In this document: in pieces, positions 7,467-37,538 of the stretch
How the letters are laid out: each line of letters begins with the position of its first letter
Numbering within the stretch: position 1 is the first letter of the stretch
Source: Synechococcus sp. M44_DOE_062
GTDB lineage: Bacteria; Cyanobacteriota; Cyanobacteriia; Thermostichales; Thermostichaceae
Length of the DNA: 44,872 nucleotides
Assembly: GCA_015295985.1 (NCBI GenBank)
Contig: DVDX01000074.1
Coordinates: forward strand, 1-44,872
Direction of reading: 5' to 3'
The notes under the pieces: generated by a model
The model's input: only the letters and a program-made list of their open reading frames with translations
What the model was told of the DNA's origin: nothing
The model's database searches: none
Made by a program: the position numbers and the translations under genes

Positions 7467-8576
7467 ATGAAGTTCTCTCCTCACCTGGCCGTGGTTTTTT
7501 CTCGTCCTCATCCTGAACACTCTGCCTCTTCGCCTCAGGAGTTTGACGATCTCTGGTTCGACCCTGAGTCTGCCCCCCAAGATGCTCTTGCAGAAGTTGA
7601 TCCAGAGCCGGTTGCCGGCGGATCCCGGTTGAACGAGGACGCTGTCGATCACTACCTGAATACCATCGGTCGCGTGCCCCGCATCGATCACGCCGAGGAA
7701 ATCGAGCTGTCGCGCAAAATTCAGCAAAAACTCCTCATCGATCAAGCCCGGCAGGAATGGCGGCAACAGCGGGGGGAGGATCCCAGTGACGAGGCTCTGG
7801 CGGAGGCCCTGCAGATTTCTGTATCCACCCTTCGCTCCCGCATCCGACAAGGGGAGCAGGCTCAACGCAAGCTGATCAACGCCAACCTGCGCCTGGTGGT
7901 CAGCGTTGCCAAGAAATACCTCAATCGAGGGGTGCCATTTTTGGATCTGATCCAAGAGGGCAATATCGGGTTAATCCGGGCCACCGAAAAATTCAATGCG
8001 GAGCGGGGGTTTCGCTTCAGCACCTATGCCCATTGGTGGATTCGCCAAGGCATTACCCGTTGCATTGCCAACCAAGCGCGGACGATTCGCCTGCCGGTAC
8101 ACATGGTCGACAAAGTGCGCCTGCTCAAGCGCACCAACCGCGAGCTGATGAAGCTACAGGGGAGGCGGCCCACAGAAGTGGAGCTGGCAGAAGCCCTGGG
8201 CATTAAAGTCAAAAAACTGCGCATGATCCAGCAGGCTGCTGCTTTGCCCCTGTCGCTGGATGTGCCGGTCGGCCAAGAAGGAGAAAGCCGCCTTGGAGAT
8301 TTGCTGCAAGATGAGCGGCAAGAGCAGCCCTTTCAAGGGATCCTCGCGCAATCGCTGCAGCAGGATGTGCGTTCTGCCATGCAAACCCTCAAGCCGATTG
8401 AGAGGCAAGTGCTGGAGTTGCGCTATGGGTTAGATGGGCAACAGGCAAGAACCTTGCGGGAGGTGGGGGATTACTTTAACCTGACGCGGGAACGGATTCG
8501 CCAGATCGAGCGGGATGCCCTGCGCAAATTGCGGGTGGGCTATTCTTCGCGGGCGTTGGCCCAGTACATCCGCTAG
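7467..8576 (+). CDS. RNA polymerase sigma factor, sigma-70 group 2 type
   Basis: A promoter-recognition subunit of RNA polymerase. Region 1.2 is seen as DHYLNTIGRVPRIDHAEEIELS. Region 2 covers NANLRLVVSVAKKYLNRGVPFLDLIQEGNIGLIRA and the -10-recognising YAHWWIRQGITR. Region 3 lies near VHMVDKVRLL, and region 4.2 has the helix-turn-helix LTRERIRQIERDALRKLR. The length of 369 residues, lack of an acidic region 1.1 and divergence at the region 1.2 start point to a non-essential group 2 sigma rather than the primary SigA, as is common in cyanobacteria. The GGGAG abutting ATG 7467 is too close for an ideal ribosome site, so GTG 7491 is an alternative start. Which Sig letter applies cannot be told from sequence alone. 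Confidence 0.9.
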   Translation: MKFSPHLAVVFSRPHPEHSASSPQEFDDLWFDPESAPQDALAEVDPEPVAGGSRLNEDAVDHYLNTIGRVPRIDHAEEIELSRKIQQKLLIDQARQEWRQQRGEDPSDEALAEALQISVSTLRSRIRQGEQAQRKLINANLRLVVSVAKKYLNRGVPFLDLIQEGNIGLIRATEKFNAERGFRFSTYAHWWIRQGITRCIANQARTIRLPVHMVDKVRLLKRTNRELMKLQGRRPTEVELAEALGIKVKKLRMIQQAAALPLSLDVPVGQEGESRLGDLLQDERQEQPFQGILAQSLQQDVRSAMQTLKPIERQVLELRYGLDGQQARTLREVGDYFNLTRERIRQIERDALRKLRVGYSSRALAQYIR

Positions 8577-8895
8577 TGGCTACAGACCTCGCAGACTGAT
8601 TTCCTGACCGACCTCTGCCCAGGGACAGCCTTTTTTCAATCTTTTTGGGTTAACACCATAGCCCCTTGAAATGGCGATCAAGGGATCCCTTATCCCCACG
8701 GCCAGATCTGGTCAAGACGACTTTAGCAGGCAACTTCTCTGGCTGTTAACTCGGACGATCTGCTTTCTCCAGTGTTAAGGCACCCGTGATGGATACTGCC
8801 AGCGCCTTGGCCTTTGTGCATTTCTGCCCTTGATCACCGGCATAGCAAAAAGGCTCAGGTCGTTGACCCAAGCCCACCCCATCATTCACAGCAGA
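8577..8895. other. Intergenic region between sigma factor and tRNA-Phe
   Basis: A gap of 319 bases. It contains one 12-base palindrome, AAGGGATCCCTT (an extended copy of the genome's GGGATCCC motif). I find no ORF with a ribosome site, no GC-rich hairpin followed by a T run, and no RNA gene that I can recognise. Confidence 0.4.
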
Positions 8896-10231: not shown

Positions 10232-11827
10232 CTAGACCTGCTGAAGTTGAGATTGCCAATCTTGGCTGGTATCCAAAACCTTTAAAAAAGGCCGTTCCGA
10301 CTCGGAAAAATCCTGCCAGTGGGCCTGCTGTTGGGAGAGCATCTCGGCGGTGGCATCGGCAATGTCAGCAGAGGGCTGCTGATCCCCATCGATGGAACCA
10401 GCTTGGGCCAAGAGGGGCTGAGGAGCTAGGCTGCGACGTTGCAGGCGCTCCCGCAAAACAGGTTCAGGGGCGTAGCAGTGGAGAATGTGCAGCGGGATCC
10501 CTTGGCGTTGGGCCTGCTCAATGGCCATTCCCCGCAGTGCTTGCCGGTCGAACTTGGCATCCAGAATCACGGTGTAGCCTTCCTGGGCCAGCTCTACCCC
10601 CAACTGCACCAAGCGGCGGTAGGTTTTATCGGTCATCTCCGGGGTGTAAACCTCCGGCCCCCCCCGTTGCCGCAGAGGGATCCCGGCCAAATGCTTGCGC
10701 ACCGCATCGGAGCGAATGTGAATGGCCCCCCGCTGACGGGCCAAGTGACGGGCTACCGTGCTTTTGCCGGATCCCGACAATCCCGACATCAGGAACAACT
10801 GCCCCTGCTTGGGGAGGGTGTATTCCCAGGCAAGGCGGTAATAGCGGGCGGCGGTACTGAAGGCCGTGGCCTTGGCTTCCTCTGTTGCCGTGGGATCCTC
10901 CAGCAAAAAAGAGGCGACCTTGGCCCGCACGTAGGCTTGGCGGTTGAGATAAATGGGCAAGATCTTCAGCCCTTCCCAATCTCCGGTTTCTTCCAGGTAA
11001 GTGTTCAAATAGACGTTTCCCAGATCGGGGCGATGGCGGGCATCCAGATCCATCACCGCATAGGATACGTCGTACATGACGTCCACAAAGCGGAAGGCTT
11101 CGTTGAACTCGATGCAATCAAAAAGCAGGATCTTCCCTTCCCAAAAACAGATGTTGCCTAGGTGCAAATCTCCGTGGCATTCGCGAATGCGGTTTTGTTC
11201 TATTCTTTGTTGGAACAGCTCCTGCCGCTCGGCAAAAAAGTGATTGGTGTAGGCTTGGGTTTCTCGATATTGCTGAGCTGTTTGTGGGCCGTCGATGTAG
11301 CGCTGAGTTTGGGCGTAATTTTCGTCAAAGGCTTCTCGCACCCGCTCTGGTCGGCCAAAGCTACGGATGTAATCGTTGGTCTCAGTCTGGGCGTGAAACC
11401 TCGCCACCACCCGCCCCAGATCCTCCATCAAGGCTGGCGTCAGCTCTCCCCGCTCAAGCAGGTTGCTGAACAGTTGCTCTTGGGGAAATTGCCGCATTTG
11501 CAGAGCGTATTCTACAGGCTCGCCGCTGCCGTTGAACTGAAATCGGCCATCGGTCTGGACAATAGGCAACACCTGTAGATAGAGGCCGGGAGCCCCGCGC
11601 TGGTTCATGCGCAGCTCTTCTTGGCAAAAGTGGCGTCGCCTCTCCAGGGTGGTGAAGTTCAAAAAGCCAAAGTCCAAAGGCTTTTTCACTTTATAGGCAT
11701 AGTCCCCTGTCAGCAGAATGTAGGAGATGTGGGTTTGAACAAGCTGAATGGGATCCCGTACCGGATGAGGGTAGAAGGTGGGATCCAGCATCGCTTGGAT
11801 CAAGGGGGGCAGGTGGGCATCGACCAT
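10232..11827 (-). CDS. Fused aminoglycoside-phosphotransferase-like kinase and P-loop ATPase
   Basis: A 531-residue two-domain protein. The N-terminal 310 residues are kinase-like: CHGDLHLGNICF is the Brenner/catalytic loop and LFDCIEFNEAFRFVDVMYD carries the metal-binding Asp, as in the APH/choline kinase group. The C-terminal 180 residues hold Walker A GLSGSGKST followed by IRSDAVRKHLAG, typical of small-molecule P-loop kinases of the gluconate-kinase/zeta-like type. This fusion is widespread in bacteria, but its substrate is not established; antibiotic resistance is not implied. ATG 11827 fits the first conserved residues. It lies 68 bases downstream of a hypothetical gene on the same strand. 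Confidence 0.85.
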   Translation of the reverse strand: MVDAHLPPLIQAMLDPTFYPHPVRDPIQLVQTHISYILLTGDYAYKVKKPLDFGFLNFTTLERRRHFCQEELRMNQRGAPGLYLQVLPIVQTDGRFQFNGSGEPVEYALQMRQFPQEQLFSNLLERGELTPALMEDLGRVVARFHAQTETNDYIRSFGRPERVREAFDENYAQTQRYIDGPQTAQQYRETQAYTNHFFAERQELFQQRIEQNRIRECHGDLHLGNICFWEGKILLFDCIEFNEAFRFVDVMYDVSYAVMDLDARHRPDLGNVYLNTYLEETGDWEGLKILPIYLNRQAYVRAKVASFLLEDPTATEEAKATAFSTAARYYRLAWEYTLPKQGQLFLMSGLSGSGKSTVARHLARQRGAIHIRSDAVRKHLAGIPLRQRGGPEVYTPEMTDKTYRRLVQLGVELAQEGYTVILDAKFDRQALRGMAIEQAQRQGIPLHILHCYAPEPVLRERLQRRSLAPQPLLAQAGSIDGDQQPSADIADATAEMLSQQQAHWQDFSESERPFLKVLDTSQDWQSQLQQV

Positions 11828-24622: not shown

Positions 24623-24938
24623 TGCTGAATCCCCCTTGTTCAGGATGGCCGAGTCTCTGTCTAGGCTAGCTCTGGCATCCCCCACCTTCACCGTTTTGAA
24701 ACAGTCGTTGAGCAGGGATCCAAATCCAGCGGCAAGATGGCTCCACTCAATTTTGGGGGTAGAGATCCCCATCTTTCTGGCACCGGCTGAGCAGGAGATG
24801 CCACTTTTCAGGAGAGGATAGGGCAACATCCAACCCAGAACCCTCTCTAGGCAACTTGAGAAGGGGGGACTTCCAAACTGCAGTAGCTTGAAGGCGTTTG
24901 TGCTTCAATGCTTGAAAGCTGTCATCGAGAGGATCCCT
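24623..24938. other. Divergent gap at the left border of the CRISPR-Cas island
   Basis: A gap of 316 bases between the Uma2 gene and the CARF-HEPN gene. It should hold both promoters. I see no gene, repeat or clear promoter; the bases before 24939 provide a GAGAGG ribosome site. Confidence 0.4.
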
Positions 24939-26216
24939 ATGGCTAATACCCTTTTGACCACTCTAGGCACCAGCCCCTACAGCGAGACGGTGTATGTTTT
25001 TGGGGAGCGGAAAGCCGATAGAACCCGTTATGTTGCCAAAGCCCTCTGTCAGCTCTTTGACATCGAGAGGGTGATTGTGCTGCTAACCCAAGAAGCACAT
25101 GACACCCATTGGAAGCATCTACAGGACTGCCTACCCCCCCACGTGGAGAAAATTGCCAAGGCCATTCCTGAAGGGAAAACCGAGGCAGAGACTTGGGAGA
25201 TCTTCGATGTGCTGGTCGATAGCATCGAGCCTCATACGCAGTTAATTTTCGATATCACCCACGCCTTTCGCTCCATCCCCGTACTGGTGCTCTTGGGAGC
25301 CGCCCTTTTGCGCAAGGCCAAGAATGTAAATATTCAGGGGCTGTACTACGGTCTCTATCTCAAAGACCAGCAGGAAACGCCCATCATCGATCTCACCCCC
25401 GCCCTTCGTCTTTTGGATTGGCTGACGGCTACTGACAAATTCATCAGCACCGGCTCAGCGCTGGAGTTGGGCCAACTTTTGGATACAGTTCAACGGGACT
25501 TTTACCGCCAACCGGGGTTGGACAAAAGGGATCCCAAACCTACTCGGCTGCAAAGCTTTGGCCGGGCCATTCGCAATGTTTCCCGCTCTCTCGAATTGGT
25601 AAGACCTGTCAGTCTGCTAGAAGAGGACTTGCCCAATTTGCAAAGGCACTCCACCGCGGATCTGGAGCAAGAGGTGGGCCAATTTGCCAAGCCTTTTGGC
25701 CTGCTGCTGCAAAGCATTCGGGATAGCTACAGCCAACTGGCCCTGCCCTCAGACAAGGCTTCGGATCCCAGGGCTGAAATTCAAAAACACTTTCAATTGC
25801 TGCGGTGGTACGTGGAAAAGCGTCTTACCGCCCAAGCTCTTCTACTGGCCCGGGAGTGGGTGATCTCTGCCCTTTGCCTGTGTGAAGGGATCCAAAACTA
25901 CCGCGAGCGAGAACAGCGGCAGGAGATCGAACAGCAGTTGGGATCCCTGATCCCACGAGGAGAGCAGCCCCAGATGCCTCTGACCATTGCCACCCATGTG
26001 CCCGACGTCCAGCAGCTTGCCGGTCTCTGGTTCCGCTTGAGTGAATACCGCAACGACACGGCCCATGTGCAGATGAATCCCAATCCTTTGGACGGGGAAG
26101 TCCTGGAAAATTTCGTTCTGCGGGAGCTGTTGCCCAAGCTAGAGGCTCTTTTCCCCGACTTGACCCAGCCAGCGTCTTCGGAGGAATTGGAAGGGGGTAT
26201 TTCCAAGACTCCCTAG
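24939..26216 (+). CDS. CARF-HEPN CRISPR effector, TM1812/Csx1-type
   Basis: An ancillary type III CRISPR ribonuclease, 425 residues. The N-terminal Rossmann-like CARF domain begins NTLLTTLGTSPYSETVYVFG. It also carries FDITHAFRSIPVLVLLGAALL, the signature of the TM1812 (TIGR02221) group, and would bind a cyclic oligoadenylate made by Cas10. Near the C-terminus YRNDTAH gives the HEPN RNase motif Rx4H (Arg371, His376), inside a helical domain. Ligand-activated RNA degradation is therefore expected; which ring size activates it is not known. ATG 24939 has GAGAGG six bases upstream; the longer frame from 24888 is less likely. A 281-base gap separates it from cas10. Confidence 0.85.
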   Translation: MANTLLTTLGTSPYSETVYVFGERKADRTRYVAKALCQLFDIERVIVLLTQEAHDTHWKHLQDCLPPHVEKIAKAIPEGKTEAETWEIFDVLVDSIEPHTQLIFDITHAFRSIPVLVLLGAALLRKAKNVNIQGLYYGLYLKDQQETPIIDLTPALRLLDWLTATDKFISTGSALELGQLLDTVQRDFYRQPGLDKRDPKPTRLQSFGRAIRNVSRSLELVRPVSLLEEDLPNLQRHSTADLEQEVGQFAKPFGLLLQSIRDSYSQLALPSDKASDPRAEIQKHFQLLRWYVEKRLTAQALLLAREWVISALCLCEGIQNYREREQRQEIEQQLGSLIPRGEQPQMPLTIATHVPDVQQLAGLWFRLSEYRNDTAHVQMNPNPLDGEVLENFVLRELLPKLEALFPDLTQPASSEELEGGISKTP

Positions 26217-26497: not shown

Positions 26498-30594
<4,097 letters not shown>

Positions 30595-30641: not shown

Positions 30642-31412
30642 ATGACTTTTCAGATTGTCTACCTCCATCTGCTAACTCCTCTACACACCGGCGGCACCAC
30701 CCAAGAAGGGAACCTCTTGGGGATTGCCCGCGAATCCCACACCAATTTGCCCTACATCCCTTCCAGCACCATTCGGGGCAGGCTGCGGGCCAGCGTGGCC
30801 AATAAAAACCAAAAATTTGAGCTCTTTGGCAACGAAATTGGGGAAGGGGATCAGCTTACTCAAGGATCCATTTGGATTGGGGATGGCTCCTTGCTTTGGA
30901 TCCCCGCGCCCTCCCTCAGCCATGGGGTGGTGTGGATAAGCTGTCCACTTCTGCTTAAGCGCTGGCTGCGGCTAACAGGCCAGAATCTGCCAGTGCCGGA
31001 TCCCTATAGCACTAGCCTTCCCAACAACAAACCTATCTACCTCAAAGATGCCATCCTCAGAGAGGGTCTCAGACAATGGTCGGAATGGAAGAGCTACACC
31101 AAAGATCCCAATATCAGTCACGTGATTGTTTTACCCGATCAGCACTGTGCCACCCTAATTCAAATGAGCCTGTGGCGGCAGGTGAAAGTCAAGCTTAGCG
31201 AGCACAAAGTTGTCGAAGGAGGCTTCCGCTACGAAGAGGCTATTCCTCCCGATAGCTTAATGTACTTTACCTGGGGGGTTACAACCCAAGCAAATGGCAG
31301 TTCTGAAGAGGCCATAAGAGAGTTTCGAAACCTGCTGCAATCCAACCAGATTATGCAGATTGGCGGCCAAGAAAGCTTGGGACGAGGCTTTGTGGAGCTG
31401 TCTTTGAACTAG
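30642..31412 (+). CDS. cmr4: Cmr4, type III-B backbone RAMP (Cas7-like), catalytic Asp apparently missing
   Basis: The Cas7-like backbone subunit that lines crRNA. Seen: LTPLHTGG at the N-terminus, YIPSSTIRGRLR as the first conserved RAMP helix, and IGGQESLGRGFVEL as the C-terminal glycine-rich loop. The length of 256 residues is normal. In slicing-competent Cmr4 a loop Asp between HxG and the IPGSSLKG-like motif cuts target RNA every six bases. Here that loop reads GGTTQEGNLLGIARESHTN; by eye Leu25 sits where Asp is expected and the only nearby acid is Glu22. Target RNA slicing may thus be lost. AAGGAG eight bases upstream supports ATG 30642. Confidence 0.85.
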   Translation: MTFQIVYLHLLTPLHTGGTTQEGNLLGIARESHTNLPYIPSSTIRGRLRASVANKNQKFELFGNEIGEGDQLTQGSIWIGDGSLLWIPAPSLSHGVVWISCPLLLKRWLRLTGQNLPVPDPYSTSLPNNKPIYLKDAILREGLRQWSEWKSYTKDPNISHVIVLPDQHCATLIQMSLWRQVKVKLSEHKVVEGGFRYEEAIPPDSLMYFTWGVTTQANGSSEEAIREFRNLLQSNQIMQIGGQESLGRGFVELSLN

Positions 31413-31437: not shown

Positions 31438-31830
31438 ATGAATAGCTTTGATCCACGCACAATGGCCAAGCCCGTTTACGAATCCCTGTGCCAGCTCAGA
31501 GCGCAAACCAGGGATCCAGAAAGGCTAAAAGAGCAAAAAAACCAGGCTGTAGAGCTGTACACCTATCTTTCTACCTGGGGTCTGCTGCGCCTCAAGGCCG
31601 AGGAAGACGCCCTTAGCCAAGATGGCAAAAAGGAGGTGGTCAAGGAGTTTTTCGATTGCCTAGAACAGATCTCCGGTCAAGATGGAATTGCCAGATCCGA
31701 TGGCCTAGATCGCCTCATGAGATTAGAAGTTGAAGAGTACCTGGGCTTAACGGGGCTGGGACTTGCCTTGGCACAAGAATTCAGCTTCTGGGCTACAGCG
31801 ATTTACCATGACGTTAGCGGAGGAGACTAA
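31438..31830 (+). CDS. cmr5: Cmr5, small alpha-helical type III-B subunit
   Basis: A 130-residue all-helical protein in the expected position after cmr4. The segment AVELYTYLSTWGLLRLKAEEDALSQD resembles the Cmr5 core, and the chain is rich in Lys/Glu with no catalytic motif, as the family should be. Cmr5 forms the belly filament of the complex, alternating beside Cmr4 and binding target RNA. A strong GGGAGGAG lies six bases before ATG 31438. Its stop TAA overlaps the next ATG (TAATG), coupling it to the Uma2-family gene. Assignment rests on position, size and a partial motif. Confidence 0.78.
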   Translation: MNSFDPRTMAKPVYESLCQLRAQTRDPERLKEQKNQAVELYTYLSTWGLLRLKAEEDALSQDGKKEVVKEFFDCLEQISGQDGIARSDGLDRLMRLEVEEYLGLTGLGLALAQEFSFWATAIYHDVSGGD

Positions 31831-32471
31831 TGAGCGTAGCCATTCCAATCCAGTCTATTTCCCTGTGTGAAGGAAGCCAAGTGGTCATCCATTCTCTGAC
31901 TTGGCAAGACTTTGAGAGCATTCTGGAAGAGCTGGGCGAAGACCGCCACACTCGCATTGCCTATTACAACGGCACTTTAGAGATCATGTCTCCCTTATCG
32001 AAACACGAGCGTCCTCATCGCATTGCCGGATACATTGTCTCAGCCATTCTCGATTCTCAAGGGAGAGACTGGGAAGATTTTGGCTCAACAACCCTTAAAA
32101 AGTCTGGCAGTGCTGGGGTAGAGCCTGACACCTGCTTTTATGTCAACCACCTGGAGCAGGTGCGAGGGTGTGAGGGAAGGATCGATGTCGATCTGTTGCC
32201 CCCACCCGATCTGGCCATTGAGTCCGATGTTACTTCCCAAACCTTTATCGACGCCTATAAAGCTATTGGCGTGCCCGAAGTTTGGATCTTGGGTGGGCGA
32301 AGTTTGCGGATATTGATTTTGCAGGGAGAAGACTACGTAGAATCGAGCTGCAGCCGGCTTTTTCCAGACTTCGATATTCCCAGTCTTGTACCTCAACTCA
32401 TTCGACGCGCCTTAGAAATTGGCACCAGCGCTATGTTGCACGAATTTCGGGAAACACTCCGCAATTTCTAA
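31830..32471 (+). CDS. Uma2-family (DUF820) nuclease-like protein inside the cmr operon
   Basis: A 213-residue Uma2/DUF820 protein with a PD-(D/E)xK-type core: EILEELGEDRHTRIAYYNGTLEIMSPLS, then GVEPDTCFYV, PPPDLAIESDVTS with the paired acidic residues, and the closing FIDAYKAIGVPEVWIL. The start overlaps the cmr5 stop by one base, and the gene ends 30 bases before the Cmr6-Cmr1 gene, so it is cotranscribed with the CRISPR complex. Uma2 genes are common and mobile in cyanobacteria, so it may be a passenger. The close coupling leaves a role as accessory nuclease open. A second Uma2 gene borders the island at its left end. Confidence 0.8.
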   Translation: MSVAIPIQSISLCEGSQVVIHSLTWQDFESILEELGEDRHTRIAYYNGTLEIMSPLSKHERPHRIAGYIVSAILDSQGRDWEDFGSTTLKKSGSAGVEPDTCFYVNHLEQVRGCEGRIDVDLLPPPDLAIESDVTSQTFIDAYKAIGVPEVWILGGRSLRILILQGEDYVESSCSRLFPDFDIPSLVPQLIRRALEIGTSAMLHEFRETLRNF

Positions 32472-32501: not shown

Positions 32502-34430
32502 ATGCCCAGCAATCGTCCTGCCAACGCCCCACAACCCCTCCCTCGCCCTGGGAGACCGGGAGCACCTAGTTCAGGAAGTCCAGGAGGAAGCCATCCCCCC
32601 AGTCAGAAAAGAGGGAATGGCAACCATCCCCAACCTTCTCCCTGGCTAGGGCATCCCTTGGATCCCAACCCCAGCCCAGATCCCACAGCGAGCTTTATTG
32701 AATATCTGCGTTGGATGAGGGCTCCAGCAACTTCTTTCAAAGACGGAACCAAAGCCGATCTGGTGCATCGGGCAGAAGCAAAGGCAAACTACGGAGCACG
32801 CCTGCAAGTTCTGAATGATCGCATCAGGCGGATTGCGGAAAAAACTTTTGAGGTCACCTGTCCCTGGCGAATTCGGGTGGGTGGATCCAAAGGGCCGGAA
32901 AGTATGCTTTTGCCCGCTTTTGATCACTTAGGGATCCCTTACCTTCCCAGCTCCACCTTGCGAGGGGTAGCCCGCACCCAGGCTATTCGAGAGTTGATGC
33001 AGAAGCACAATCTGTCTTGGAAAGAGGCGGATAAGGCAGTGGCACCTTGGCTTGGGCACCTAGAAGCTGAGGATAAAGACAGTGCTGGCAAGGTGATCTT
33101 TTTGGATGCCTACCCCGTGCCAACCCGTCCCCAAAGACAGGGGGATCCCGATAACTCCAGGTCGGGAGGCTTGGCTGTTGATATTGCCAATAATGTTTGG
33201 AGATGGAATGGCAACAGCTTGGAATATAAAGCAAATCCCAATGTCTTTTTCTCTCTCAGACAGGCCACATTTTTAATCGGGATCCGCAAAGGGCCAGGCT
33301 GCACCGACGAGATGTTGGCCCAAGTGAAAGAATGGCTCATCCGCGGGCTGGAGCAAGGGGTGGGATCCCAAGTTAATACCGGCTATGGTCGGCTGATTCA
33401 AACTGGCAAAACTCTAGCTCAATACAAGGGAGAATTCTTGCGACTGCCTTTTGAGCTGGAGGGTCAGTTGATCCACGGGCGACAAGTGGTTAACTGGAGA
33501 TCTGACAGGAACCGGTATGACAACAAATCAATTGCCGAAGTCCGACCGGTGGCCTTTAAGAACATGCTGCGCTACTGGTTTCGAGCCTTTGCCTTGGGTG
33601 TTTTGCCCGTGAGGCAGGTGCAGGAATGGGAGGGGCAACTTTTTGGGGCCATCACTCCCCAGCAAAAACATGGCTGGATCCATGTGGATCTTTCGAATGG
33701 GCGGGTAACTCAACCGGAGCCGGAACCCAATCAAGCAGGAAAGGGGAAGCCTGCCGGACGGCAAGAAGGGATCCTCATTCTCAGCCTTTCTGAGGAGTGC
33801 CAAAACTATACTTCAAGAGAAAAGCAGGAAGCGGTACAAAAGCTCTTTTGGAATCTAACCTGGCTGCTGTTTCATTTGGGAGGTATTGGCCAAGGGGCAA
33901 GAAGGCCCTGCTACTCTCGCCAAAACCGCGATAGAGCTCCTTGGTGGCGTGGATCCACCCTCATTCCCAATAATGAATCTTCAGAAGATTCATTTTGGAA
34001 TCTGCCAGAGTCGGTAGAGGAATTCCGGAAGCTCTTTCAGGAGCGGCTGCGGGGCTTTTTTGAGGCGCTCCAGGTCTTGACTGAGCAGGTCATTGATCCC
34101 AGAAAACCTATGACCTTTGGTCAGGTCAGCAAAGAGAAGTGGTCTGAAGCCGTGGATGCCCATTGCAGGATTGTAGTCTGCAGCGGCCCAGAAGAGTTTA
34201 ACAAGCCCTATGCTTTGGCTGTTTTGCACAAGGTAGGCAAGATAGCGCCAGGAAAATATAACAAGTTTCTCTGCGGCGATACAGGCACGCCATCCCCTGT
34301 CTGGATTGCAGATTTGGGCGACTATCAGGCGGTTACCGTTTTTGGGGCAACTGCGAATCCCAGGAAAAGATATCTCGAAGATCTGGAGAGTGGAGCAGAT
34401 AGCTTTGCTCAAATCTGGCCATTCCGGTAG
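32502..34430 (+). CDS. Cmr6-Cmr1 fusion, type III-B double RAMP
   Basis: One unbroken 642-codon frame. Residues 1-60 are a Pro/Gly/Ser-rich tail. Residues about 65-310 read as Cmr6: YLPSSTLRGVARTQAI (147-162) and the closing glycine loop GVGSQVNTGYGRL (286-298). Residues about 315-642 read as Cmr1: ELEGQLIHGRQVV, EVRPVAFKNMLRYWFRAF (346-363), LFGAITP, and LTWLLFHLGGIGQGARRP (452-469), which match the RPxxxKGxLRxWWRA and GGLGxRxRRG motifs of Cmr1. No separate cmr1 or cmr6 is in the operon, so one protein supplies both subunits at the crRNA 3' end. AGGAG nine bases upstream supports ATG 32502. The Cmr1 half is assigned by motif, not by search. Confidence 0.82.
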   Translation: MPSNRPANAPQPLPRPGRPGAPSSGSPGGSHPPSQKRGNGNHPQPSPWLGHPLDPNPSPDPTASFIEYLRWMRAPATSFKDGTKADLVHRAEAKANYGARLQVLNDRIRRIAEKTFEVTCPWRIRVGGSKGPESMLLPAFDHLGIPYLPSSTLRGVARTQAIRELMQKHNLSWKEADKAVAPWLGHLEAEDKDSAGKVIFLDAYPVPTRPQRQGDPDNSRSGGLAVDIANNVWRWNGNSLEYKANPNVFFSLRQATFLIGIRKGPGCTDEMLAQVKEWLIRGLEQGVGSQVNTGYGRLIQTGKTLAQYKGEFLRLPFELEGQLIHGRQVVNWRSDRNRYDNKSIAEVRPVAFKNMLRYWFRAFALGVLPVRQVQEWEGQLFGAITPQQKHGWIHVDLSNGRVTQPEPEPNQAGKGKPAGRQEGILILSLSEECQNYTSREKQEAVQKLFWNLTWLLFHLGGIGQGARRPCYSRQNRDRAPWWRGSTLIPNNESSEDSFWNLPESVEEFRKLFQERLRGFFEALQVLTEQVIDPRKPMTFGQVSKEKWSEAVDAHCRIVVCSGPEEFNKPYALAVLHKVGKIAPGKYNKFLCGDTGTPSPVWIADLGDYQAVTVFGATANPRKRYLEDLESGADSFAQIWPFR

Positions 34431-34453: not shown

Positions 34454-34753
34454 ATGTCGAGAAGGAAAATTAACGTCAAAGCTCTAACAAGTCTGATTAC
34501 AGCTTTAATCAACGGCTCAATCACCCTGGTCATTTTGCTGATTGCCCCTTTGGGGTTGGCAGCCGTAATTACAAACACGATCCTCGTTATAATTGCCAGC
34601 TTATTTTCAGGTAGTCTGGCAGAGATTTTGATAGGTTTCTTGTCAAGCCCTGAAATTGATGTGGAGATTTTACCAGAGCGTGGTGCCTCTAAACCCGGCA
34701 GTGCCATACAGCAAAGGCAGGGTTCTGAGAATCTCCGCCGAGATGACGGCTGA
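34454..34753 (+). CDS. Small two-helix membrane protein in the CRISPR operon
   Basis: A 99-residue protein with a basic N-terminus (MSRRKINVKAL). A long hydrophobic block at about residues 10-64 forms two or possibly three membrane helices (LINGSITLVILLIAPLGLAA, then NTILVIIASLFSGSLAEIL). A polar tail of about 35 residues ends RQGSENLRRDDG. I recognise no family. AGAGG lies before ATG 34454, and the last codons overlap the start of cas1 by 11 bases in another frame, so it is translated within the operon. Several type III systems carry membrane proteins as cyclic-nucleotide-triggered effectors. This one lacks an obvious sensor domain, so it may be an anchor, an effector tail, or unrelated. Confidence 0.7.
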   Translation: MSRRKINVKALTSLITALINGSITLVILLIAPLGLAAVITNTILVIIASLFSGSLAEILIGFLSSPEIDVEILPERGASKPGSAIQQRQGSENLRRDDG

Positions 34754-35750
34754 TGCGAACTTTAGATATTTATATATTTCCCAGCAAGGATGCAGGCTGA
34801 GCCTTAGGCAAGAGTTTATTCTGGTTCATTTGGGCGAGTCGCTCTTGCAGGAGGTGCCTCTACCCTTGCTGGAACAGGTTTTTATCTTTGGCCGATCCCA
34901 GGTCACCACAGACGTAGTGAGAGAATGTCTAAGGCGGAATATTCCTATTGCCTATCTCTCCCGGATAGGCTATTGCTATGGTCGCCTCGTTCCCATAGAG
35001 AGGGGGTACCGCCGCTTAGCTCATTTGCAACAAGCCCTCCCAGAAGAATGGCGATTGCAAACGGCAGCCCAGATTGTGCGAGCCAAGCTGCTCAATAGCC
35101 GAGTGCTGCTGATGAGACAGCTTAGGCAACGCCCCACTGAGACAGGGGATCTGACTCTGCGTAGCCTGGAACACTTGGCTGCTCGGGCTCTGGAGGCCAG
35201 CTCTCTGGATGAACTGCGAGGCATTGAAGGAATGGGAGCAGCCCTCTATTTTCCTGAACTGGGCAATTGCTTACAACGGAGAGGATTTGTCTTGATCAAT
35301 CGCACCCGACAGCCGCCTACTAACCCCGTCAATGCCATGCTCAGCTTTGGCTATATGGTGCTCTGGAACCACCTACTAACTCTGATTGAGCTGCAAGATT
35401 TGGATCCATACCAAGGTTGCTTGCACGCCAGCAGCGAACGCCATGCAGCTCTGGTTTCTGATTTGCTGGAAGAGTTTCGAGCGCCCATTGTGGATTCTCT
35501 AGTGCTGTGGCTTGTTAATAAGGGGATCATGGTTCTCGAAGAAGACTTTGAGTATCGCGACGGAGGCTGTTTCTTAAACGATAGCGGCAGGAAAAAGTAC
35601 TTGAGAGCTTTTATTCAAAGAATGGAAGAGCCAGTCCAAACCCCTGACGGGGAACAGCCCCGCTGGGATCTGCTAACGCAGCAGGTTAGGAAGTTTAAGC
35701 AATCCATCTATAACTCTCAAGATTTGTACCAGCCCTATCGGATTCGCTGA
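34743..35750 (+). CDS. cas1: Cas1 integrase of the CRISPR adaptation module
   Basis: The metal-dependent integrase that inserts new spacers. ATG 34743 (MTADANFRYLYI) gives 335 residues, a normal length. The N-terminal beta domain includes VFIFGRSQVTTDVV and PIAYLSRIGYCYGRL. The catalytic helical domain carries RGIEGMGAALYF (Glu162), CLHASSERHAALVSDLLEEFRAPIVDSLVL (His228 and the Asp240/Glu243 region) and a late GRKKYLRAFIQRME. All expected active-site residues appear present. It is not fused to a reverse transcriptase. Its start overlaps the small membrane protein gene and its TGA overlaps the ATG of cas2. Confidence 0.95.
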   Translation: MTADANFRYLYISQQGCRLSLRQEFILVHLGESLLQEVPLPLLEQVFIFGRSQVTTDVVRECLRRNIPIAYLSRIGYCYGRLVPIERGYRRLAHLQQALPEEWRLQTAAQIVRAKLLNSRVLLMRQLRQRPTETGDLTLRSLEHLAARALEASSLDELRGIEGMGAALYFPELGNCLQRRGFVLINRTRQPPTNPVNAMLSFGYMVLWNHLLTLIELQDLDPYQGCLHASSERHAALVSDLLEEFRAPIVDSLVLWLVNKGIMVLEEDFEYRDGGCFLNDSGRKKYLRAFIQRMEEPVQTPDGEQPRWDLLTQQVRKFKQSIYNSQDLYQPYRIR

Positions 35751-36028
35751 TGTTTCTTTACATCGTTGCCTATGACACTCCCTGCAACAAGCGTCGCAAG
35801 AAGATTGCCGACCTGCTAGAAGCTTACGGCAAGCGCGTTCAGTACAGCGTGTTTGAGTGCGTCCTTGATAGGGGGAAGTTTGAGGAACTCAAGCTACGGC
35901 TTCGGAAAAGGATAAACCCTAGCGAAGACAGCATCCGCTTCTACCCCCTCACCGGCCATGCCCTCAGCCAAGTGGAGATATGGGGCGGGCCTCCCCTAAC
36001 TTTGCCCCCCAGCTCAGTTATTGTGTAG
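35750..36028 (+). CDS. cas2: Cas2, CRISPR adaptation subunit
   Basis: A 92-residue ferredoxin-like protein that bridges two Cas1 dimers. MFLYIVAYDTPCNKRRKKIADLLEAYG has the conserved first strand with Asp9. VQYSVFECVLDRGKFEELK and the SIRFYPL strand complete the fold. The ATG at 35750 overlaps the cas1 TGA. The array leader begins directly after its stop codon. Confidence 0.95.
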   Translation: MFLYIVAYDTPCNKRRKKIADLLEAYGKRVQYSVFECVLDRGKFEELKLRLRKRINPSEDSIRFYPLTGHALSQVEIWGGPPLTLPPSSVIV

Positions 36029-36279: not shown

Positions 36280-37538
36280 GTTCCCCCTTCGGGGGGATCC
36301 CTAGAAATTGGAAACGCGGGGGACAGGATAGGACGGCCCCCAGCAAGGCGTAGGCGTTCCCCCTTCGGGGGGATCCCTAGAAATTGGAAACGTGTGCCAT
36401 GAGATGAAAAGGTTGAAAAGAACTGTTGTTCCCCCTTCGGGGGGATCCCTAGAAATTGGAAACCGCGAGGGTTTCGATGGTCGTCTCGACCAATTGTAGG
36501 TTCCCCCTTCGGGGGGATCCCTAGAAATTGGAAACCTCCGGGGGGTTAAAAAAGGGTACTGGGTCCGGCTGAGGACGATGTGTTCCCCCTTCGGGGGGAT
36601 CCCTAGAAATTGGAAACCACCTATCCGAGGTTAGGGAACCCCGCCTAAAATACGTTGTTCCCCCTTCGGGGGGATCCCTAGAAATTGGAAACTAAATCGG
36701 AAAAACGTGAAGGCATTCCCAAAAGAGGTGTTCCCCCTTCGGGGGGATCCCTAGAAATTGGAAACACGTTGCCACCAAGGCAGCGTTCAGGACCGCGTCG
36801 TTGTTCCCCCTTCGGGGGGATCCCTAGAAATTGGAAACAGCCCAAGCGCGGTCCCGATGTTCGTCCGCACTTCCTCTAGTTCCCCCTTCGGGGGGATCCC
36901 TAGAAATTGGAAACATACGGTATTGCGGGGTGTAGGCAGGGATTTCTGTTCCTCGTTCCCCCTTCGGGGGGATCCCTAGAAATTGGAAACATTAGCCTCA
37001 GGAGGGCCGTATCCCGGGCCAACCAACCCCGGGTTCCCCCTTCGGGGGGATCCCTAGAAATTGGAAACTGGCCCGGTTGACCCCGGCTGCCAGCCCTGCT
37101 ATTCGAAAGTTCCCCCTTCGGGGGGATCCCTAGAAATTGGAAACTGCAGTTGCTGGGCCAGGGTGGCCCCGGTGACGTAAGGAAGTTCCCCCTTCGGGGG
37201 GATCCCTAGAAATTGGAAAGACTCTGTGCAGTCTGCTAAGGTAACCGGAAAGTTCTTCACGTTCCCCCTTCGGGGGGATCCCTAGAAATTGGAAACAACT
37301 CCGATTCAATATCGGGCTCAAACTCCTCAATCGCTGCCGGTTCCCCCTTCGGGGGGATCCCTAGAAATTGGAAACGGCCCAGCCCACATATATCTGGGGT
37401 TGACGGCCCAGAGCCCTGGTTCCCCCTTCGGGGGGATCCCTAGAAATTGGAAACAATCCGTTCTGTTTCCTCCAGGCGTCGTACGACGCCTGGGTCACCC
37501 CCGTTCCCCCTTCGGGGGGATCCCTAGAAATTGGAAAC
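36280..37538 (+). CRISPR. CRISPR array, 17 repeats of 36 bases, 16 spacers
   Basis: Repeats start at 36280, 36356, 36428, 36500, 36582, 36657, 36730, 36803, 36879, 36955, 37033, 37109, 37185, 37261, 37340, 37419 and 37503. The repeat opens GTTCCCCCTTCGGGGGG, which folds as a five-pair C/G stem closed by a UUCG tetraloop, and ends CTAGAAATTGGAAAC, giving a 5' handle like other type III crRNAs. Only repeat 13 differs: its last base (37220) is G instead of C. Spacers are 36 to 48 bases, mostly 40, as usual for type III. After repeat 17 come two more copies of TTTGGAAAC. Orientation is plus, with leader and cas genes on the left. No spacer matches anything I noticed within the window. Confidence 0.98.

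Follow-up and report, generated by a model that had tools for sequence, protein, structure and literature searches.

A CRISPR operon in the hot-spring cyanobacterium Synechococcus sp. M44_DOE_062, lying on a 44,872-nucleotide stretch of contig DVDX01000074.1 (hereafter the window), raises the question of how a type III-B effector complex is assembled when its Cmr6 and Cmr1 subunits appear to share one gene, and whether such a fusion had been seen before. Our analysis indicates that the fusion is real, yet already known and widespread in cyanobacteria. It also brings out a linked loss of the catalytic aspartate of Cmr4 which, if confirmed, weighs more than the fusion itself.

Two Cmr subunits in one open frame

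The locus runs in the order csx1, cas10, cmr3, cmr4, cmr5, uma2, fusion gene, csx18, cas1, cas2 and CRISPR array (Table 1). Cas10/Cmr2, Cmr3, Cmr4 and Cmr5, together with Cmr6 and Cmr1 as halves of one protein, place it in type III-B, and the operon and fusion match those of Synechocystis CRISPR3, a member of the III-Bv variant. In III-Bv, crRNA maturation is carried out by host RNase E in place of Cas6. No cas6 was found in the window's operon, and the only Cas6 found in the genome lies on another contig (C71), beside a different CRISPR locus. The true start of cas1 is probably inside the listed frame. A Uma2-family gene in or beside the operon was also seen in five of 79 related loci (L079, L091, L126, L136 and L137).

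Table 1. Features of the III-B locus in the window, with the longer fusions of basal cyanobacterial genomes (positions within their own stretches)
Feature	Position	Strand	Basis or remark
csx1 (CARF-HEPN RNase)	24888..26216	+	PADLOC CARF-HEPN 1e-111; TIGR02221; HEPN motif RNDTAH intact
cas10/cmr2	26498..29473	+	PADLOC Cas10b 3e-290; NCBIfam Cmr2 above cut-off; HD (LLHDP) and GGDD intact
cmr3	29482..30594	+	Pfam Cas_Cmr3 3e-94
cmr4, without catalytic Asp	30642..31412	+	TIGR02580 1.8e-35; alignment gap at P. furiosus D26
cmr4 loop codons, about residues 23-27 (G-N-L-gap-L-G)	30708..30722	+	phmmer against solved P. furiosus Cmr4
cmr5 (small subunit)	31438..31830	+	PADLOC Cmr5 5e-64
uma2-family gene	31830..32471	+	Pfam Uma2 2e-15; between cmr5 and fusion gene
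cmr6-cmr1 fusion gene	32502..34430	+	single open frame from ATG, 642 aa
Tail, residues 1-60	32502..32681	+	Pro/Gly/Ser/Asn-rich, disordered, poorly conserved (composition, pLDDT, comparison with L005)
Cmr6 half, residues 61-309	32682..33428	+	Pfam RAMPs, hhalign and solved Cmr6 chains (values in text)
Cmr1 half, residues 310-642	33429..34430	+	hhalign, solved Cmr1 chains and structure match 4l6u (values in text)
csx18	34454..34753	+	NF040558 1.8e-19, above cut-off
cas1	34656..35750	+	Pfam Cas1 5e-82; match starts at residue 39
cas2	35750..36028	+	TIGR01573 5e-18
CRISPR array	36280..37538	+	17 repeats of 36 nt, spacers of 36-48 nt
Longer fusion, L045	8010-10595
Longer fusion, L046	6148-8469
Longer fusion, L160	6045-8822
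Longer fusion, L161	7666-10419
Longer fusion, L162	5815-8592

The original prediction placed Cmr6-type and Cmr1-type motifs in one unbroken frame behind a Pro/Gly/Ser-rich tail of 60 residues, and this description holds. The gene has no internal stop, and the quoted Cmr1-type motifs were found in the second half: RPVAFKNMLRYWFRA at roughly residues 348-362 and GGIGQGARRP at 460-469. Proline, glycine, serine and asparagine make up 65% of residues 1-60, and the AlphaFold model has a pLDDT below 50 at residues 1-44. The tail ends at about residue 50-60, the conserved block of the protein beginning near W48. Since the tail is poorly conserved and mostly absent from the nearest relative (L005, 89% identical), it is unlikely to be essential.

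The first half is recognized as Cmr6 by several routes. It matches the Pfam RAMPs family at 3.5e-20 and the NCBIfam Cmr6 model (TIGR01898) at 1.7e-7, the latter under the model's strict cut-off. A profile of 29 sequences matches solved Cmr6 chains at 4.7e-15, and hhalign against Cmr6 from separate-gene loci gives 98.4%. The C-terminal glycine-rich loop of this half, GVGSQVNTGYG, is conserved. For the second half, the window's sequence alone reaches only E 0.02 against the NCBIfam Cmr1 model (TIGR01894), with 15 bits against a cut-off of 28.65; it is identified as Cmr1 through its relatives and through profiles. In several relatives (e.g., G097, G185 and G253) the same frame exceeds the TIGR01894 cut-off, and the family profile of this half matches three solved Cmr1 chains, that of P. 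furiosus at 1.1e-6. In hhalign it gives 96.8% against separate-gene Cmr1 and 0.5% against Cmr6, used as a negative control. The PADLOC profiles for Cmr6 and Cmr1 are both matched by all 29 aligned members.

Structure prediction agrees with these comparisons. Modelled by AlphaFold at full length, the protein has a mean pLDDT of 77.7 and a pTM of 0.76; the best PDB match of this model is Cmr1 4l6u, with the Cmr6 entries 9l7c, 3x1l, 9x25 and 4w8v also significant. Modelled alone, the C-terminal half reaches a pLDDT of 93.9, and its best PDB match, chain J of the Cmr-beta structure 6s6b, is moderate (TM 0.48/0.36). Compared separately by profile, as had been proposed, and also by structure, the two halves thus come out as Cmr6 and Cmr1, and these data establish the gene's identity, its single frame and the fold class of its product. 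The 642-residue protein is confirmed as a disordered tail followed by a Cmr6 half and a complete Cmr1 half.

The absence of separate cmr1 and cmr6 genes, noted at first for the operon, holds across the genome. A search with the RAMP family returned Cmr4, the fusion protein and a single further RAMP, located on contig C71, and no separate cmr1 or cmr6. The Cmr1 model found only the fusion protein in the whole genome, even at E 10. The C71 RAMP, considered as a possible separate cmr1, was rejected: it adjoins cas6, csx3 and a CARF gene and has no match to the Cmr1 model. The window's Cas10 is the only one in the genome that passes the family cut-off. The C71 locus itself (L036 in genome G000) comprises cas1, cas6 (7711-8859), csx3, an IS element, the RAMP gene (10324-11217) and the CARF gene, and may be partly decayed.

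Distribution of the fusion and its predicted role

The search for the same fusion in other cyanobacterial III-B loci, suggested with the original reading, revealed a conserved family. Relatives were found in 51 of the 386 cyanobacterial genomes searched, and scanning GTDB contigs recovered 79 loci whose titles are all cyanobacterial. Wherever flanking sequence suffices, the genes follow the order cas10-cmr3-cmr4-cmr5-fusion. No second Cmr6 or Cmr1 match was found in the flanks of the 79 loci. Where both halves are present, the frame is unbroken in 73 of 76 loci; the other three carry one stop or frameshift. More distant fusions of about 530 to 700 residues exist in other cyanobacterial families, and basal genomes of the phylum encode longer ones of 773-926 residues with extra C-terminal sequence (Table 1). 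The fusion is thus not confined to close relatives, and its conservation is directly observed. Separate cmr1 and cmr6 genes also occur in the same phylum (L159, L163 and L164).

Some loci depart from the common pattern. The end of the L045 fusion resembles, by eye, an OB or cold-shock-type domain, and no cas10 or cmr3 was seen in that 16 kb stretch. At L041 (7244-8290), a degenerate copy of 348 residues holds only the Cmr1 half near a Cmr4 gene; the same genome also carries a full-length fusion elsewhere.

This breadth bears on how the single frame is to be explained. The window's assembly has 90 contigs, and an error of sequencing or assembly could in principle join two genes; the fusion recurs, however, across about 80 independent records as well as complete genomes, which refutes this and leaves it a negligible probability. 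The protein might instead be translated as one chain and then cleaved into separate Cmr6 and Cmr1, which would make the fusion structurally meaningless. The halves are indeed joined by a short linker, but its length from the Cmr6 GYG loop to the start of Cmr1 is nearly constant, usually 19-21 residues among relatives, unlike a free cleavage site. Moreover, full-length Cmr1-6 was purified within the Microcystis complex after expression in E. coli (PMC11855584), and we consider cleavage very improbable.

The C-terminal half could also be a relic of Cmr1 that stabilizes Cmr6 without handling crRNA or target, as might be supposed from its strong divergence from archaeal Cmr1 and its score below the curated cut-off. 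Against this, RYWFR is present in 72 and GQG[AS]RRP in 70 of 73 single-frame relatives, and 54 alignment columns are invariant among 29 sequences; the half is therefore under strong selection. It also keeps, at 333 residues, the full length of Cmr1, with the confident model described above. A relic is consequently unlikely, if a little less so than cleavage.

The fusion is very probably the cap subunit of the III-B complex, in its cyanobacterial III-Bv form, with Cmr6 and Cmr1 as one polypeptide. The fused protein enters the complex in a published relative, Microcystis, and by analogy would do so in Synechococcus. Its position and role may be modelled on canonical Cmr, in which the filament is capped by Cmr1 and Cmr6 where the crRNA has its 3' end, and the two subunits are proposed to set the seed in place for target binding (PMC8376896). 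By this model, the Cmr6 half would close the Cmr4/Cmr5 filament at the 3' end of the crRNA, while the Cmr1 half, reaching over a linker of about 20 residues, would sit on the Cmr6 half and help make the 3' portion of the guide available for its first pairing with target RNA. Because the link is covalent, it fixes a 1:1 ratio and keeps Cmr1 from leaving on its own, which may bring a functional advantage.

Loss of the catalytic aspartate in Cmr4

The catalytic aspartate of the Cmr4 backbone, a functional hallmark of type III-B rather than a criterion of classification, is missing in the window. The catalytic loop reads GVVD26QPIQRE in P. furiosus Cmr4 and GNLLGIARE in the window's Cmr4, the alignment leaving a gap of a single residue precisely at D26. 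Across the Cmr4 loci covered (the window, L037-L158 and L159-L177), the residue is absent from 98 of the 99 fused-system loci examined. It is kept in four of 102 aligned Cmr4 proteins, namely those of three loci with separate cmr1 and cmr6 and that of the fused basal locus L046. The latter, in basal genome G010, rules out a strict coupling between fusion and loss of the aspartate. All 93 Cmr4 proteins of the photosynthetic lineage lack it and group together on the same side of a branch with 100/100 support. In five basal loci the loss seems to be a separate one, the number of losses being uncertain given the long branches and uncertain root of the Cmr4 tree. In the divergent L172, L173 and L175, an aspartate lies two positions away from the catalytic site.

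We found no report of this loss in III-B in the open literature, with the main III-Bv paper outside the search. The searched passages of the 2025 classification (PMC12669027) describe Cas7 aspartates as missing in III-G and III-H and contain no like statement for III-B.

In a set of 81 Cas10 proteins, which includes those of L159 and L046 from outside the main family, GGDD is kept in 79 and the HD motif in 52. Since the Cmr4 aspartate is missing while the cyclase motif of Cas10 is kept, these systems are predicted to sense target RNA and not to slice it. The loss of slicing in fused III-B is a prediction drawn from one residue position. The window itself combines a Cas10 bearing both HD and GGDD with a Csx1 whose HEPN motif is intact. 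In such a system, target binding would switch on Cas10, with its HD nuclease and cyclase, and then Csx1, leaving the target RNA unsliced; the predicted output is signalling, to which DNA cutting may be added. The HD motif has been lost in L138, L139, L140, L141, L145, L148, L153 and others; in these members, cOA signalling would be left as the sole predicted output.

Slicing of target RNA is regarded as the timer by which type III immunity is switched off. In S. islandicus, artificial loss of the same residue (D27A) leads to strong autoimmunity (PMC9368842), and natural carriers would therefore need another brake. A gene of the ring-nuclease family, csx3, is present in the window's genome. From the sequences, we judge it rather probable that fused cyanobacterial III-B forms a large slicing-dead branch, which would stay active while target RNA is bound and require another off-switch, such as ring nucleases. 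If true, natural type III systems running without the slicing timer would be widespread and would include that of the model organism Synechocystis 6803.

Comparison with known Cmr systems

The possibility that the fusion was new, left open in the original prediction, is not sustained. In Microcystis aeruginosa FACHB-524, Cluster 4 encodes a single protein with both a Cmr1 and a Cmr6 domain, which was given the name 'Cmr1-6' in 2025, and the MaCmr complex of Cas10, Cmr1-6, Cmr3, Cmr4 and Cmr5 was purified from E. coli; phage defence by this system was also reported (PMC11855584). Its locus resembles the window's in having csx1, cas10, cmr3, cmr4, cmr5 and cmr1-6 together with uma2, and no separate cmr1 or cmr6, and differs in species and accessory genes. 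The authors assumed aspartate-dependent cutting of target RNA by Cmr4 and asked for tests (PMC11855584), whereas Cmr4 in the Microcystis loci of this kind examined here (L100, L101, L107 and L110) lacks the aspartate.

A second precedent is CRISPR3 on plasmid pSYSA of Synechocystis sp. PCC 6803, assigned to III-Bv (Behler 2018, as cited in passages of PMC9880817 and PMC12475003). Its fusion protein is 43% identical to the window's over 93% of the length. The two loci share the order cas10-cmr3-cmr4-cmr5-fusion, nearby csx18, cas1 and cas2, a Cmr4 without the aspartate, and an operon beside which cas6 was not seen. CRISPR3 differs in being plasmid-borne, in its adaptation genes, which lie upstream on the other strand, in its repeat, and in having no csx1 within 9 kb flanks. 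The products Sll7085-Sll7090 form a co-fractionating assembly (PMC9880817); judging by gene order, the fusion would be Sll7085. Scholz 2013, on Synechocystis, makes no mention of Cmr1, Cmr6 or a fusion.

The window's locus is also of a type described earlier. Genome G177, which we take to be that of Synechococcus JA-2-3B'a (OS-B'), encodes a fusion 89% identical to the window's, in a locus (L037) whose repeat, found near 866.1 kb on a contig of 3,046,682 bases, is identical to that of the window; this position agrees with the published CRISPR-IIA. Passages of the 2009 paper on this Yellowstone strain place CRISPR-IIA at 866,037-867,185, leave its type unclassified and do not describe the fusion (PMC2612747). 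The window's locus thus belongs to the type described as 'CRISPR-IIA' in Synechococcus from Yellowstone.

Databases already contain the fusion under another name. The PADLOC-DB profile PDLC01212, of 499 positions, spans residues 114-639 and so covers both halves; as it is filed as Cmr6 only, annotation tools report no Cmr1. The main value of recognizing the fusion is therefore to correct annotations in which such proteins are called 'Cmr6' or 'RAMP superfamily' and cmr1 is reported missing. With precedents in Microcystis, Synechocystis, PADLOC and OS-B' CRISPR-IIA, the fusion is of a known kind, belonging to a conserved cyanobacterial family.

Compared with the canonical Cmr complexes of P. 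furiosus, A. fulgidus and T. thermophilus, the window encodes homologous Cas10, Cmr3, Cmr4, Cmr5, Cmr6 and Cmr1. In those complexes, Cmr1 and Cmr6 are separate chains and Cmr4 keeps its catalytic aspartate, as seen here for P. furiosus; the cyanobacterial fusion, in contrast, offers a natural single-chain Cmr cap that is useful for structural work.
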